Source: Tolypothrix sp. PCC 7910
GTDB lineage: Bacteria; Cyanobacteriota; Cyanobacteriia; Cyanobacteriales; Nostocaceae
Assembly: GCF_011769525.1 (NCBI RefSeq)
Contig: NZ_CP050440.1
Span: 3,659,501 to 3,723,500, forward strand
Direction of reading: 5' to 3'
Length of the DNA: 64,000 nt
Under the pieces are notes generated by a model. It was given only the letters and a program-made list of their open reading frames with translations. It was not told where the DNA came from and did no database searches. Shown here piece by piece: positions 36,315 to 51,426 of this stretch; position 1 is the first letter of the stretch; each line of letters opens with the position of its first letter. The translations under genes were made by a program, and so were the position numbers.

Positions 36315-36383
36315 TTGGTAGCCTCAGTTAGTTTTTTGGTTGTTATTCTAGTACTATTACGTAAAAATGAACGCCACAGCGAT

Positions 36384-39185
36384 ATGGCTCGATATGCCCT
36401 GATAATTGGCATTGCCAAGTATGACAACTTCACTAACCTACCAAAAGCTGTTGATGATGCAGAAAAAATCGCACAGCTATTAAAAGAACACGGTCGCTTT
36501 GATGTGCAGCCGTTACCTGGTAAATTAATCGAGAGTGAAAATTGCTGGCAAGTCACTGCTGAGAAAAAATTAATTGGTAAAGAACTCGGACAAGCGCTGA
36601 GGCTGTTTTTACTGGAGAAAGCCAAAGGTAGCGAAGCGCTGATTTATTTTGCAGGACATGGATTTGAAGCACCCAGCCTCACAGGTGAACCGAAGGGGTA
36701 TTTGGCTACTTCAGATTGTCATAAAGATGGGCAAAATGCGATCGCCTTTGATGACTTCAACACCTTAATTGCGAAATCTCAACTCAGCAGCCTGGTAGTA
36801 CTGTTAGATTGCTGTTACGCTGGCTCATTACTAGAAAGAAGCTTCATCAGATCTAGTTTTCCAATCTTCAACAGCAAACAAGACTACTGCTTAATTACAG
36901 CCTCCCGTGCGTTTGAAAGAGCTAGGGAAGATGCGGAAGGTGGAATTTTCACCAAAGCAGTCATCAAAGGATTATCTCGCGATAAAGCGGATGAGACTAC
37001 AGGTGAAGTCAACGCCAACGACTTGATGAGCTTCGTATCGCGGGAACTCAAGGGAAGCGGACAAGAAGCAATTTACATGGGTGGTGGTAGGTCGATTCCC
37101 TTAGTTTTTTATCCGCCACAGAATCCGGTAGCATCTGGGGTGGTAAGTGAAGAATGTCCTTACCGAGGATTAGAAGCGTTTGACAAAGAACACGCCAAAT
37201 TCTTTTTTGGTCGCCAAAAAGTAGTTAACTTAATTCAACAGAAACTAGAACAAGCTAACTTTATTCCCATCATTGGCGCATCGGGAAGTGGTAAATCTTC
37301 GGTGGTTAAGGCTGGTTTAATTCCAGTGTTAGAAAATAATGGCTGGCAAGTATTAGAGATGACACCAGATGTCGAGCCGTTAGCTGAGTTGAGAGGAGTA
37401 TTTAAAACATTTTTCTCTAACACCAGAGAACTTTACGATTTGATTCGCAAGCACCCAGAAGGTTTACGTCAGTTAGTGTTACGCCTTCCTGATTCTGAGC
37501 GTTTCTTATTGCTGGTAGATCAATTTGAAGAAGTTTTTACACTTTGTCCCAAAGAAGAGGAAAGACACAGGTTTATTGAGCTATTAACACAATGTCACAA
37601 AGGGCGGTTGGCAATTATCACGACGATGCGAGCAGATTTTCTCGAACCTTGTTTGAATTATGAATCGCTGACGCAATTAATTCAAGAACAGACAGTTTAT
37701 ATGCCGCCATTGCTAGGAGGAGAATTAGAAGAAGCGATCGCATCCCCAGCTAACTTGCAAGGTTATCAGTTAGAGAGAGGTTTACTCGGAACTATTCAGC
37801 AAGATGTTATCGGGCAAGAAAAAGGCTGCTTACCTCTGTTACAGTTTGCGCTGACTGAACTTTGGCAACAGCGCGATCAACAAGCACATCAGTTGACAGT
37901 TGCTAAGTATAAAGAACTGGGTGGAGTAACTGGAGCGCTAAATCGCCATGCAGAAAATCTATATCAAGGTTTCACTCCACAGCAGCAAGATTGGGTGAAG
38001 CGGATTTTTTTAAAGTTGGTGCGTACTGGGTCACAAACTAAAGATACTCGACAATGGCAAGCTAAAACAAAATTGTTGAGCATTGCTGGTGAAAATCCAG
38101 ATGAGCAGCAAGTCATCAGTGATGTTTTAGAAAGGCTAATTCAGGGACGTTTGCTAGTACTTGACTGCGAAGCCACAGGAGAAATTTGGGTAGATTTAGC
38201 TCACGAAGCCTTGATGGAAGCTTGGGAAAGGTTTGCTAAGTGGCGTAAAACAGGGAGGGAATTTAGACGATTAATTAATAGGTTAGAAGATGCCTTTCGC
38301 GAGTGGCAAGAGCAACCAGATGATGGAAATTTAATGATGGGTAGATTGCTGACTCAAGTGCAACATAAATGGCAAGAATTAGAACCAGAAATGGACACCA
38401 CAGTTAAAGACTTTTATCACCGCAGTGTTGTATTTGAACAACAAAAACTTCAGCTATATGAAGCTGCTAATCAAGCAAAAAGATTATTTTTAGCAAATAT
38501 GAGTTATGAACTCCGTACACCAATGAATGCTCTTCTTGGTTTCACCCAGGTAATGAGTAATGACAATTCTTTATCTGCTGAGAATAAAGAGAATTTGGCA
38601 ATTATCAATCGTGCTGGCGAGCATCTCCTGAATTTAATTAACGACATCCTCGACCTGTCAAAAATTGAAGCAGGGAAAATGACTTTCTACCCACGGATAT
38701 TTGATATCGAAACCCTGATCAATAACATTGTCCTCTTCATTAAGCCAGCAATAGAAAAAAATGGCAATATTTTAGAAGTAGATTGTAATCAGCATCTTGG
38801 CACAATGTATGCAGATGAAACTAGAATGCGGCAAGTGCTGTTAAATCTGTTGAGTAATGCAGCTAAGTTTACGAAAAATGGAAAGGTAAGGCTGATTGTT
38901 AACAGTGAAGAACAATCACTACAAGATACGTTGAAACCTACTGTAGTTGACATGATAACTTTCACAGTTATAGATACAGGCATTGGTATATCTGATAATC
39001 TACAGGAAAATTTATTTGAACCATTTACAACAGGAGATACATCCAAAAAATATGGTGGGGTTGGATTAGGTTTGGCTATTAGCCATCATTTTTGCAAAAT
39101 GATGGGTGGTGATATTTTTGTCAAAAGTAAGCTGGGAGAAGGTTCTACTTTTACTGTGCGTCTACCGCGCAATATAAATCTATAA
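36384..39185 (+). CDS. Caspase (C14)-nSTAND ATPase-histidine kinase fusion, H-box His replaced by Tyr
   Basis: 933 residues from ATG 36384 (an upstream start would add 23 residues before MARYALIIGIAKYD). Order: caspase-like peptidase (residues 1-245) with dyad His92 (YFAGHGFEA) and Cys144 (LLDCCYAGS); linker SEECPYRGLEAFDKEHAKFF leading into an nSTAND ATPase with Walker A GASGSGKS (298-305) and Walker B LLLVDQFEE (375-383) and a helical C-part to about 690; then a HisKA-like domain and a full HATPase (N-box NLLSNAAKFT, DTGIGISDN, GGVGLGLAI). The H-box reads MSYELRTPMNALLGF: Tyr708 (codon TAT, 38505-38507) replaces His. Probable NTP-regulated cell-death or defence effector. Confidence 0.92.
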   Translation: MARYALIIGIAKYDNFTNLPKAVDDAEKIAQLLKEHGRFDVQPLPGKLIESENCWQVTAEKKLIGKELGQALRLFLLEKAKGSEALIYFAGHGFEAPSLTGEPKGYLATSDCHKDGQNAIAFDDFNTLIAKSQLSSLVVLLDCCYAGSLLERSFIRSSFPIFNSKQDYCLITASRAFERAREDAEGGIFTKAVIKGLSRDKADETTGEVNANDLMSFVSRELKGSGQEAIYMGGGRSIPLVFYPPQNPVASGVVSEECPYRGLEAFDKEHAKFFFGRQKVVNLIQQKLEQANFIPIIGASGSGKSSVVKAGLIPVLENNGWQVLEMTPDVEPLAELRGVFKTFFSNTRELYDLIRKHPEGLRQLVLRLPDSERFLLLVDQFEEVFTLCPKEEERHRFIELLTQCHKGRLAIITTMRADFLEPCLNYESLTQLIQEQTVYMPPLLGGELEEAIASPANLQGYQLERGLLGTIQQDVIGQEKGCLPLLQFALTELWQQRDQQAHQLTVAKYKELGGVTGALNRHAENLYQGFTPQQQDWVKRIFLKLVRTGSQTKDTRQWQAKTKLLSIAGENPDEQQVISDVLERLIQGRLLVLDCEATGEIWVDLAHEALMEAWERFAKWRKTGREFRRLINRLEDAFREWQEQPDDGNLMMGRLLTQVQHKWQELEPEMDTTVKDFYHRSVVFEQQKLQLYEAANQAKRLFLANMSYELRTPMNALLGFTQVMSNDNSLSAENKENLAIINRAGEHLLNLINDILDLSKIEAGKMTFYPRIFDIETLINNIVLFIKPAIEKNGNILEVDCNQHLGTMYADETRMRQVLLNLLSNAAKFTKNGKVRLIVNSEEQSLQDTLKPTVVDMITFTVIDTGIGISDNLQENLFEPFTTGDTSKKYGGVGLGLAISHHFCKMMGGDIFVKSKLGEGSTFTVRLPRNINL

Positions 39186-44038: not shown

Positions 44039-44503
44039 TTAAGTTGACGGAAAAGGTTTCAGCCAGCCAAGTTGTATAGCAGTATCGAGTGCGATCGCTG
44101 CGATCGCAAACCACAATATACTCTCAAGAGCTAGGACAAGATGAGGTAAAAGAGAAACTGTAATATTCCCACCGACTTCTATTTGAGTTAATCCTCTGAC
44201 TAAACCAAAGGCAAACACACCACCAGTTTTTAAGTGAGGATTATTATCTTTACGGATGATATAGCGGTAAGTAACACCAAATAGCAAGCCAGAGAAGGAA
44301 GCGATCGCACCACTCAGCAAAAAATGTAAAGTTAGCGGCTCAATTAAGAGCGTTGCGAATAGGGAAAAATACTTTGCCAGCACTAAAGTATTTATAAGAC
44401 TAGTGAAAATAAAAGCGAAACCCAGGGATAAACCGCCAATCATCCCAGCTTTCAAAGATTCTAGGCGTTCCGCCATCAGTTGAGCATCTAAAATTCTATT
44501 CAC
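44039..44503 (-). CDS. Hypothetical membrane protein
   Basis: 154 residues, four predicted spans (GMIGGLSLGFAFIFTSLINT; FATLLIEPLTLHFLLSGAIA; SFSGLLFGVTYRYII; LVLALESILWFAIAAIALDT). A basic cytoplasmic loop YRYIIRKDNNPHLKTGG lies between spans three and four. No named family recognised, but the regular layout suggests a conserved cyanobacterial protein. A HIP1-rich 3' end. Confidence 0.75.
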   Translation of the reverse strand: MNRILDAQLMAERLESLKAGMIGGLSLGFAFIFTSLINTLVLAKYFSLFATLLIEPLTLHFLLSGAIASFSGLLFGVTYRYIIRKDNNPHLKTGGVFAFGLVRGLTQIEVGGNITVSLLPHLVLALESILWFAIAAIALDTAIQLGWLKPFPST

Positions 44504-44686: not shown

Positions 44687-44776
44687 ATGGCGATTTTGAC
44701 ATTGGGATGGGTATCACTGTTGGTCGTATTCACTTGGTCAATTGCAATGGTAGTTTGGGGCCGTAACGGACTATAG
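44687..44776 (+). CDS. petN: Cytochrome b6-f complex subunit VIII
   Basis: 29 residues with one membrane span, beginning [20 protein letters not shown] and ending in WGRNGL; length and sequence match PetN. It is a small structural subunit of the thylakoid cytochrome b6f complex, which passes electrons from plastoquinol to plastocyanin or cytochrome c6. A second small membrane protein gene starts eight bases after its stop, suggesting one transcript. Confidence 0.96.
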
Positions 44777-45220: not shown

Positions 45221-48200
45221 ATGGAAAACTCCTTTTCGCTACAATCTCTAAACCCAAATACTGAGCCACAGACATATCAGCCAGATCAGAGATTTTCTCT
45301 TTATCAAGGCGATCAACATAGAGCCTTATCTAAAGTTATTGCCCGCATTCGCGAATCTTTAGATATAGAAACCATATTTAAAATTACAGTCAAGGAAGTG
45401 CGCCAACTTCTCAATAGCGACAGGGTGGGAGTTTTCCGTTTTTACCCTGATTTGGGATGGGAAGGAGAGTTTATCTATGAAGATGTCGCAGCAGAATGGA
45501 GTTCAGCGCTAAAAGCTAAACTGCGCGATCAATGTTTTGCTACAGAATTTGCTGGATTGTATCAGCAAGGGCGAATTAATGTCTTACATGATATTTATCA
45601 AGCTAATATTAGCGATTGTCATATCAAGCTCTTAGAGAGATTCCAAGTTCGCGCTAATATTGCTGTCCCCCTGATGAAAGGTAAAGAGTTATGGGGATTA
45701 TTATGTATTCATCAATGTAGTGAACCTCGGCAATGGCAAGCATCAGAAGTTGAATTTGCCCAACTCATTGCTGAACATTTAGGAGTTGCATTACTACAGG
45801 CAGATTATATTGAACAAGTAAAAATACAATCAACACAATTAGCACAAGCAACAGCCAGAGCCAAAGTAGCGGAATGGCAAAAAACCATAGCCATAACTGT
45901 AGAAAAAATTCGTCAGTTTCTCGATTTAAAAAGCATTTTCCACGCTAGTACTGATGAACTCAGAAAATTGCTGAATGCCGATCGAGTTGCTATTTACCGT
46001 TTCAATCCAGATTGGACTGGTGAATTTGTATTTGAATCAGTAGCAGAAGGTTGGACTTCTTTAATTGATGAACAATCGCAGCGTCCGGAATTAGGTGACA
46101 ACGTCAGTGAATGTAGTGTTAAAGATTTAGCGGAAGTTCCTTTAGTAGATACTTACTTACAAGATACAGAAGGTGGACGTTTTACTAGAGGCGAAGTCTA
46201 CCGCATTTGTAATGATATCTATAAAGCAGATTTTAGTGAATGCTACATTAGAGTCTTAGAAAGCTATCAAGCCAAAGCTTATGTAATTATTGCCATTTAC
46301 CACGGAAAAAAACTTTGGGGTTTGCTAGCTGTTTATCAAAACGATAGCAGTCGTGATTGGCAAGAAGATGAAGTTTATTTACTGACTCAAGTTGGTACTC
46401 AACTAGGTGTTGCTTTACAGCAAGCAGAATTTTTACAACAATCACAAAATCAAGCAGCTGAACTCACCAAAGCTGCGGAAAGACAAAGGGCGCTGGCCAA
46501 TACCGTCGAGAAAATTCGGCAATCATTGGATATTGACACCATATTTAAAACTACAACTCAAGAAGTACGAGGATTATTACAAGTAGAACGAGTATCAATT
46601 TATCGCTTTAATCCTGACTGGAGTGGTGAATTTGTGGCAGATTCTATTGTTGATGGCTGGACAATCATGATACAGCCACAATCTGTAACAGAACAGGTGC
46701 TTTTGCCAGGAACACCAGCAGGTAAATATGCGCGTCACGAAATATTTGTACCTATTTCTCAAGGTGAAAAACTTTGGGGTTTATTAGTAGCTTATCAAAA
46801 CTCCCAAGCACGTTATTGGCAAAATGAAGAAATCAATTTGTTAGCACAAGTGGGCGTGCAATTAGGAGTAGCAATACAGCAAGCAGAAACCTTGAAGCAG
46901 GTACAGCTACAAGCGCAGCAATTGGCTCAAGCAGCTGAAAGAGAACGGAAAGCTACCGAAAGAGAGAAAGCTTTAGCTGCAACGGTTAAGAAAATGCGCC
47001 AATCTCTCAATCTTGATACCATCTTTGCCACCACTACTCAAGAAGTGCAAAGACTATTAGAACTTGACAGAGCAACAATTTATCGCTTTAAAGAAGACAG
47101 TAATGTTGAGTTTGTAGCTGAGTCATTAGCAAATAATGGAACAGTTAATCGGCAAGTTGTACCTTTAATTATTAAAGATTACTTCCAACAAATTCAAGGC
47201 AGAGATTACCATAACAGTAAAATTCTGGCTATTAAAGATATTTATAATACGGAAAATTACACCAATCATATTTCTTTGCTACATCCTATAGTAGCTAGAG
47301 CATATATGATTGTGCCAATTTTCCAAGGCGAAGGAATTTGGGGATTGTTGGCAGTATATCAAAATAGTAAATCTCGAGATTGGCAAGAAGATGAAATTGA
47401 TTTACTAGTGCATATCGCTAATCAATTAGGTGTAGGAATTCAGCAAGCAGAATTACTAGAACAAACGCAGCGCCAAAAAGAAGAACTGACACAAACACTT
47501 ACAGAGTTGCAGCGAACTCAAACTCAGTTAATTCAAAGTGAAAAAATGGCTGGATTAGGACAAGTAGTTGCTGGCGTAGCCCACGAAATTAATAACCCAA
47601 TTAATTTTATTTATGGCAATATTTCCCATGTCACTGAATACACGGAAAATTTGCTAAAACTGCTGCGAATTTATCAGAAAAATTATCCTAATCCGAAAGC
47701 AGAAGTTAAACAGCAAACTGCAGAACTAGACGTAGAATTTATTGCTAAAGACTTACCTAAGATTCTTAAATCCATGAATGTTGGTGCAGAACGCATCAGC
47801 GAATTAGTACTCTCATTACGTACTTTTTCACGCCTGGATGAAGCAGATATGAAACCTGTGAATATCCATGAAGGTATTGACAGTACATTAATGATTTTAC
47901 AACATCGCCTGAAACCGCAGGCTGATGAGAGTGCTATTGAAGTAGTTAAGAAATACTCTTCATTACCTCCAATTGAGTGCTATGCAGCCGAGATGAATCA
48001 AGTATTTATGAATATTCTTAGCAATGCAATTGATGCACTAGAAAATGCGGTAAAAGTGAAAAAAACCATTGAGCATCCTCAAATTTACATTTATACAGAA
48101 CTGGTAGATGAAAATTCCATCCAGATTCGGATTGTGGACAATGGCTGTGGCGTTCCAGAAAATATGCGATCGCGAATTTTTGATCCATTCTTTACCACCA

Positions 48201-48349
48201 AGGAACCAGGTAAGGGTACAGGCGTAGGATTATACATTAGTTATCAAATTGTTGTGGAAAAACACGGTGGACAAATTCAGTGCTTTTCCCAACCCGATAA
48301 GGGTTCTGAGTTCTTAATCCAAATTCCGATTAAACGAGCAGTCAGCTAA
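45221..48349 (+). CDS. Four-GAF histidine kinase with a DXCF-type cyanobacteriochrome domain
   Basis: 1042 residues, soluble. Four GAF domains (about 35-195, 228-405, 428-560, 588-745) joined by helices, then HisKA with His788 in [17 protein letters not shown] and a complete HATPase ([38 protein letters not shown]). GAF1 carries both cyanobacteriochrome cysteines: Asp103-Gln-Cys105-Phe (DXCF) and Cys133-His134 in [18 protein letters not shown], 28 residues apart. GAF2 has Cys341-Tyr342 at the canonical place; GAF3 is about 40 residues short there and GAF4 has Asn. So GAF1 probably binds a bilin and the kinase senses light. No response regulator is adjacent. Confidence 0.92.
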
Positions 48350-50466: not shown

Positions 50467-51426
50467 TTAAATTGACTTAACTTGATGGCGTTTACTCAAA
50501 GACAAACCTAACAGCGTAGCAATTAGCCCTAATCCAGCCAAAGGCGTTGGTTCAGGAACGCGTTTTGGTTGAGATGAAGTAGTTGGGGGTGTATATAAAT
50601 TGCCATTAAATAAGTAATTATGAGATTCTCCATTCCCCGTTAAGGAACCTACAACTACGTTACCGTTAACTTGACCGTTATTGAAATTGAAATTAGCTAA
50701 AGGTGCCAGGATACTACCTTGAATGCCAATTCCACTAGCAGTTAAGTTGGTGGCTTCATAGAAGTTGTAAATCACTTTTTGCTTATCTGTACCAATGATA
50801 TTAAATCCAAAGTTTTGCATTGACACATTTGTACCACTGATATTTATAACGACAGTGGCATTTGCATCAGCTCTAATTTCAAAATAGTTGGTTTTAGAAA
50901 CATCTGCACCTGAAAGATTAAACACATTAAAAGCACTACCACTAGCAGCGAGATTAATCGCACCCCAAGATTGAACTGTAGTTTTACCAGTGGGAGTCAA
51001 GCTTGCCAAAGATTTCGAGAGCGATCGCAGTTCTGTTGCTGCGGCATTAAAATCAATGGGATTACCTTTGCTGAGGGTACCATTGGGGAAGCCAACATTA
51101 TTAGCAACCTTAGCAACGCCTCCATAAACAGCATTACCGTGGTTTACTTGACCATTACTTAAAGTCAAGTTCTGCCCAGCTACTACTACATTTCCGCTAT
51201 TATTAGCCAGTTTACTTCCCAATCCACCCACAAAATTAATATTACCGCCAGCAGCTAGCTTACCTTCAATATCTGTATATTGCTGAGTTACATTTCCTAA
51301 AGAAAATACGTTGTAACTAGAGGCGATTCCTAATCCGGCTGCATTTGCTTTTTGTGAGATACCCACAGATAAAGTTATAACCATCGGTGCTGCTATCCCA
51401 GCACATAAATAGCTTTTGAATTTCAT
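50467..51426 (-). CDS. Choice-of-anchor A family PEP-CTERM protein
   Basis: 319 residues, secreted. Signal peptide LCAGIAAPMVITLSVG...ANA, then a beta-rich domain of the choice-of-anchor A type (YNVFSLGNVTQQYTDIEGKL, AAGGNINFVGGLGSKLANNS, and QGSILAPLANFNFNNGQVNG with NVVVGSLTG). The C-terminus VPEPTPLAGLGLIATLLGLS followed by LSKRHQ is a PEP-CTERM sorting signal, processed by exosortase. Likely an extracellular or matrix protein. Confidence 0.92.
   Translation of the reverse strand: MKFKSYLCAGIAAPMVITLSVGISQKANAAGLGIASSYNVFSLGNVTQQYTDIEGKLAAGGNINFVGGLGSKLANNSGNVVVAGQNLTLSNGQVNHGNAVYGGVAKVANNVGFPNGTLSKGNPIDFNAAATELRSLSKSLASLTPTGKTTVQSWGAINLAASGSAFNVFNLSGADVSKTNYFEIRADANATVVINISGTNVSMQNFGFNIIGTDKQKVIYNFYEATNLTASGIGIQGSILAPLANFNFNNGQVNGNVVVGSLTGNGESHNYLFNGNLYTPPTTSSQPKRVPEPTPLAGLGLIATLLGLSLSKRHQVKSI

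Follow-up and report, generated by a model that had tools for sequence, protein, structure and literature searches.

The stretch of DNA analyzed here (the window) comprises 64,000 nucleotides of Tolypothrix sp. PCC 7910 (contig NZ_CP050440.1) and contains a gene for a sensor histidine kinase with four GAF domains. Going by its sequence, the best description of the protein is an NpR1597-type kinase with two photosensors, in which the third (red) sensor has been lost. The evidence taken jointly is best explained by a sensor histidine kinase that has tandem N-terminal bilin photosensors, GAF1 and GAF2, and is an ortholog of Nostoc punctiforme NpR1597; we put the probability of this reading at about 0.82. 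Near-ultraviolet, blue, and teal light are very probably perceived by this kinase via two different pigment-binding domains and not one; where an earlier reading had a single dual-Cys photosensor, the number is thereby corrected to two (near-UV, blue, and teal) within one kinase. The gene is mostly ordinary because its product corresponds to a kinase of Nostoc with domains that were studied before; what is new is that the third sensor, GAF4, seems to have been lost repeatedly across orthologs, and that many genomes, though not that of the window, have the kinase gene divergent to one for an ETR1-type hybrid kinase.

Conservation was assessed in 63 distinct full-length sequences, that of the window and 62 others, drawn from those 68 of 103 loci that reached 60% identity and nearly the full length. 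Only plus-strand frames were used, which left out the minus-strand loci L011, L015, L016, L019, and L021; duplicates of L011 and L015 (L025 and L030) did enter the set. Six truncated orthologs were treated separately, by pattern only. Alignments took 33 of the 40 diverse rows picked, and the relatives search used the best 80 of 90 relatives, among which the nearest named ortholog was from Nostoc linckia FACHB-104 (98% across the entire protein). The light kinase was matched at E ≤ 1e-250 in 112 of the 217 genomes of the family.

The open reading frame begins with ATG. HATPase_c scored above its Pfam cut-off and HisKA below; the H-box at H788 is present together with the N, G1, F, and G2 boxes, and by sequence the kinase boxes are intact. 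Pfam detected no ethylene-binding domain in the protein, and inspection by eye revealed no evident membrane segment.

Table 1. Features of the light kinase gene and its upstream flank, in window coordinates; counts refer to the 63-sequence set unless loci are named
Feature	Coordinates	Strand	Basis
Four-GAF sensor histidine kinase, 1042 aa, probable NpR1597 ortholog	45221..48349	+	ORF and translation; Pfam GAF x4, HATPase_c
GAF1, residues 28–200, DXCF cyanobacteriochrome, probably blue/teal	45302..45820	+	Cyanobacteriochromes, including TePixJ, head the PDB matches by sequence and by fold; β2 Phe84 61/63, α4 Phe141 61/63
DXCF motif D103-Q-C105-F106 (second Cys)	45527..45538	+	D103 62/63, C105 62/63, F106 63/63
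Canonical bilin Cys133-His134 of GAF1	45617..45622	+	C133 61/63; residue 134 H in 36, Y in 25 of 63
GAF2, residues 216–402, insert-Cys cyanobacteriochrome, probably near-UV/blue	45866..46426	+	NpR6012g4 identity 47% (182 alignment columns); 6bhn matched by profile search at 4.3e-57
GAF2 loop with insertion, residues 283–309	46067..46147	+	W278 to D310: 31 residues vs 13 in NpR6012g4, i.e., 18 extra
Insert-Cys motif C298-S-V-K301 (CXXK)	46112..46123	+	C298 63/63, K301 61/63
D310-T-Y-L313, insert-Cys counterpart of the DXCF motif	46148..46159	+	All four positions 63/63; letters as in UG1 (PMC5240096)
Canonical bilin Cys341-Tyr342 of GAF2	46241..46246	+	Both positions 63/63
GAF3, residues 416–558, putative structural/relay domain	46466..46894	+	Without bilin segment: alignment gap across the Cys region
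GAF4, residues 575–748, red/green-type, Cys lost (N682) and conserved Trp lost (G640)	46943..47464	+	C682 18/63, W640 55/63
H-box H788-EINNP, phospho-acceptor	47582..47599	+	All six positions 63/63
HATPase_c, residues 925–1038	47993..48334	+	Pfam PF02518; N, G1, F, and G2 box core residues kept
154-aa protein, no Pfam match, membrane-like by eye	44039-44503	-	Relative in flank of 56/70 loci (L024–L093)

Candidate bilin-binding domains GAF1 and GAF2

The first-pass annotation had assigned GAF1 to the DXCF-type cyanobacteriochromes, from a D103-X-C105-F106 motif and a C133-H134 pair whose Cys residues are separated by the same gap of 28 as in TePixJ. Motifs and positions proved exact, and the gap from the DPCF Cys to the ECH Cys in the TePixJ chain (3vv4) is likewise 28. 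GAF1 is 41% identical to TePixJ across 136 alignment columns, and its profile (hmmsearch) matched 6oap at 2.2e-50 and TePixJ 3vv4 at 7.9e-34. A structure model of GAF1 gave a fold match to cyanobacteriochromes at 6.9e-11, with a mean pLDDT of only 62 that was weakest at the bilin segment; the first 25 Foldseek rows for this pLDDT 62 model are what we take, in part from their names, to be cyanobacteriochromes or proteins derived from them. The conserved pocket residues of cyanobacteriochromes, the absence of which had been named as a possible objection, are present in the GAF1 alignment. The DXCF and CH motifs are not there by chance, judging from the near-invariance of D103, C105, F106, and C133 (Table 1). 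Motif, spacing, pocket residues, and conservation thus support the assignment of GAF1 as a two-Cys DXCF-type cyanobacteriochrome. The chromophore supply is also encoded: the genome has three heme oxygenase genes and one Fe_bilin_red gene, which scores as a phycocyanobilin:ferredoxin oxidoreductase (354.7 bits vs a cut-off of 206).

The β2 and α4 Phe sites are tied to red/green and teal-DXCF photocycles (PMC5240096). GAF1 carries Phe at both (F84 and F141), as in the teal-DXCF subgroup, and TePixJ has neither; therefore, a blue/teal photocycle is likelier for GAF1 than a blue/green one, and TePixJ is probably not its best analog. In the proposed mechanism, Cys133 would hold phycocyanobilin, probably isomerized to phycoviolobilin, as is typical of DXCF domains (PMC11284453; PMC5578081). 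In the dark state, C10 would be bonded by Cys105 to give a blue-absorbing form, and light would convert this to a teal-absorbing state. GAF1 is nevertheless not indispensable, to judge by the sequence set, because its marks were lost in 2 of the 63 sequences (L045 and L089), and among the six truncated orthologs, the GAF1 signature was found in only three and the GAF2 signature in five.

Two further proteins of the same genome carry motifs of this kind. A paralog (L104:1297-4899) has five GAF domains, the fourth with D-H-C-F and C-Y, making it a second DXCF kinase, and the first with G-N-C-F, lacking the Asp. A methyl-accepting chemotaxis protein (L107:233-3214, minus strand) has three GAF domains, two of which bear DPCF and ECH marks much like those of TePixJ; it is likely to be a PixJ-type phototaxis receptor.

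GAF1 had been proposed as the only light-sensing domain of the protein, the other three GAF domains being regarded as partly degraded. The underlying observations were accurate: GAF2 has Cys-Tyr (C341-Y342), GAF3 lacks the Cys segment, and GAF4 has Asn (N682). GAF3 and GAF4 have no bilin sites in the window protein. GAF2 is not degraded, and the claim of a single sensor falls. What had been missed is that an inserted loop of GAF2 carries another Cys, C298, with a DTYL motif after it. In insert-Cys cyanobacteriochromes, the second Cys lies in a CXXR/K motif of the insertion loop, and in one of them, UG1, DTYL is the counterpart of DXCF (PMC5240096). GAF2 has these marks of an insert-Cys domain in its sequence: the CXXK motif, DTYL, and the canonical Cys341. 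Its β2/α4 residues (F269/Y349) are the same letters as in UG1 (F684/Y777; PMC5240096). The sole departure is the Tyr that follows Cys341, in place of His, in all 63 sequences; the same paper mentions a CH motif for NpF2164g3 (PMC5240096).

The Tyr and the lack of a DXCF Cys are what could be said for GAF2 being a degraded cyanobacteriochrome, with only GAF1 sensing light. We consider this very improbable: C298, D310-T-Y-L313, and C341-Y342 are invariant, and the marks of GAF2 vary less across the set than those in GAF1, while several residues beside C298-S-V-K301 in the loop vary freely. By comparison, position 682 of GAF4, which is truly decayed, shows eight residue types, Cys included. Tyr after the Cys is also seen in the alignment in miRFP670nano, which binds bilin, and in the GAF1 of 25 of the 63 orthologs. 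GAF2 was accordingly rejected as a decayed domain. Its structure model (pLDDT 44) was unusable and was set aside as evidence.

Both GAF1 and GAF2 could instead bind bilin with one of them serving as a fixed, non-switching domain or as a redox or thiol sensor, its paired Cys residues answering thiols or oxidants. NpR1597g2, in which the second thioether is present in both states (PMC5578081), lends this some color, as its photocycle is already unusual. The same source nonetheless reports a UV/blue photocycle for NpR1597g2, and the residues that line the pocket in switching domains are retained; we regard the alternative as quite unlikely and favor two light-sensing domains.

GAF3, GAF4, and the third sensor

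GAF4 of the window lacks both the canonical Cys and the conserved Trp of the red/green (XRG) type, having N682-H683 and G640 at these sites; the idea that it binds bilin covalently and functions in this strain was rejected. For GAF3, we know of no report of a photoactive counterpart in NpR1597. In the window strain, GAF3 and GAF4 would be free of bilin and would relay the signal through linkers to the H788 kinase. The missing bilin sites of these two domains would also suit a kinase with small-ligand GAF domains that is cyanobacteriochrome-like in ancestry only, a reading made hardly credible by the selective retention, across the family, of the Asp residues and the two Cys pairs in GAF1 and GAF2. 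Two tandem photosensors followed by relay domains remain the preferred arrangement.

The GAF4 Cys site is highly variable across the 63 sequences (C 18, S 12, P 11, N 5, R 5, K 5, Y 4, Q 3). In the five-row clade that includes the window, position 640 has lost its Trp as well, with G in four rows and E in one. A quick tree of the 63 rows was built without the GAF4 columns, with a root that we placed on L081, L084, and L089. On this tree, the minimum number of changes was nine for presence of the GAF4 Cys, three for His/Tyr at position 134, and three for the Trp at position 640. With the Cys in 18 of 63 sequences and at least nine changes of state, the third sensor therefore seems to have been lost repeatedly. 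The change count itself fits repeated gain equally, but loss appears likelier because, with this root, the Cys occurs not only in Nostoc rows but also in early-branching rows of Mojavia and Mastigocoleus. The median ratio of GAF4 divergence to that of residues 1–560 was 1.21 where both sequences keep the Cys (78 pairs), 1.54 where both lack it (824 pairs), and 1.58 for mixed pairs (617), none of these being sets of independent pairs. Change of the GAF4 Cys, with GAF1 and GAF2 near-intact, provides a natural series in which to study the integration of two as against three colors by one kinase.

Gene neighborhood and the ETR1-type kinase

No response regulator was found by Pfam scan among the 17 neighboring ORFs longer than about 110 aa between 33864 and 59311. 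The relative of the 154-aa membrane-like protein that recurs in the flanks (Table 1) sits some kilobases further upstream in several loci. Three other neighbors are recorded here as observations. About 6 kb upstream (36315-39185, plus strand), a 956-aa protein joins a Peptidase_C14 caspase domain, an nSTAND1 STAND NTPase domain, HisKA, and HATPase_c, an unusual combination; a small ORF at 44687-44776 (plus strand) encodes a 29-residue product that, by eye, resembles PetN of the cytochrome b6f complex; and 50467-51426 (minus strand) encodes a protein with an ice-binding-like adhesive domain (Pfam pAdhesive_15).

In many Nostoc relatives, two genes, divergently oriented, precede the light kinase (e.g., at L037:1009-4313): by Pfam, one encodes an ETR1_N hybrid kinase that includes a receiver, and the other a receiver-kinase. 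The ETR1_N part keeps a C-G-T-G-H stretch that resembles the copper site of plant ETR1. The hybrid kinase gene lies upstream in 27 of 70 loci (L024–L093). Across the 217 genomes, 75 have an ETR1-type kinase and 63 of these also have the light kinase. Adjacent, divergent copies of the two genes occur in 39 of these 63 genomes, the matches being 670 to 1195 bases apart; 37 of the 39 genomes belong to a single genus (g6) and one each to two others (g56 and g80). In the other 24, the genes are far apart on one contig (8 genomes) or on different contigs (16 genomes, where a contig break could hide some adjacency). These 24 include every one of the eight genomes from the genus of the window. In the window genome itself, roughly 1 Mb separates the light kinase from the ETR1-type hybrid kinase gene (L115:5506-7410), which is split into two open frames by an internal stop.

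The ETR1-type neighbor is thus clade-bound and a weak pointer to function, because 37 of the 39 adjacent cases fall in one genus. SynEtr1/UirS of Synechocystis is a receptor that combines a cyanobacteriochrome with an ethylene-binding domain (PMC6682694; PMC3546692), and for that reason the neighborhood is suggestive by analogy, no more. A speculative extension, to which we give a low probability, is that light and ethylene are sensed by a split system in which this kinase makes up the light half. The task that one fused receptor (ethylene domain, cyanobacteriochrome, and kinase) has in Synechocystis would in many Nostoc species fall to two divergent genes, for the near-UV/blue/teal kinase and for an ETR1-type hybrid kinase; the third (red) sensor in GAF4 would be kept or dropped per lineage, and the pair would have become uncoupled in the lineage of the window. 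The frequency of the ETR1-type neighbor makes light-ethylene crosstalk in Nostoc worth testing.

Comparison with known photoreceptors

TePixJ (3vv4, 4fof, and 2m7u), a blue/green DXCF protein, resembles GAF1 in its DXCF and CH motifs, their spacing, and overall identity, and differs in its output, a methyl-accepting chemotaxis protein, and in lacking the β2 and α4 Phe residues. UG1 (Mbr3854g4 of Microcoleus B353), a near-UV/green insert-Cys domain, shares with GAF2 the insertion Cys in CXXR/K, the DTYL motif, and the β2 Phe with α4 Tyr; it belongs to a separate protein with a near-UV/green photocycle. In GAF2, the canonical Cys is followed by Tyr. SynEtr1/UirS (Slr1212) is, as predicted for the window protein, a near-UV-sensing two-Cys cyanobacteriochrome kinase (PMC3546692; PMC6682694), but it carries the ethylene-binding domain in its own chain, whereas in the 39 genomes with adjacent genes the ETR1-type kinase is a separate gene.

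The closest system is NpR1597. Its first GAF domain (NpR1597g1) is described as teal-DXCF and its second (NpR1597g2) as near-UV/blue insert-Cys with C298 as the second Cys (PMC5240096); a red/orange photocycle is also reported, NpR1597g4 having a dark-reversion half-life of 3.5 h (PMC6121604). The excerpts of the literature that we searched give no cellular role for NpR1597. The order of domains in the window protein (DXCF, insert-Cys, silent GAF, red/green-type GAF, and kinase) and C298 agree with NpR1597 as published, a comparison at the level of description (PMC5240096; PMC6121604). The insert-Cys is numbered 298 in 39 of the 57 rows in which a Met aligns to M1, the window included. Because the order of domain types and the number of the insert-Cys are the same, we infer that the window protein is very probably an ortholog of NpR1597. 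The two differ in GAF4, where Asn and Gly occupy the Cys and Trp sites of the window protein, respectively, and the red/orange sensor has presumably been lost.
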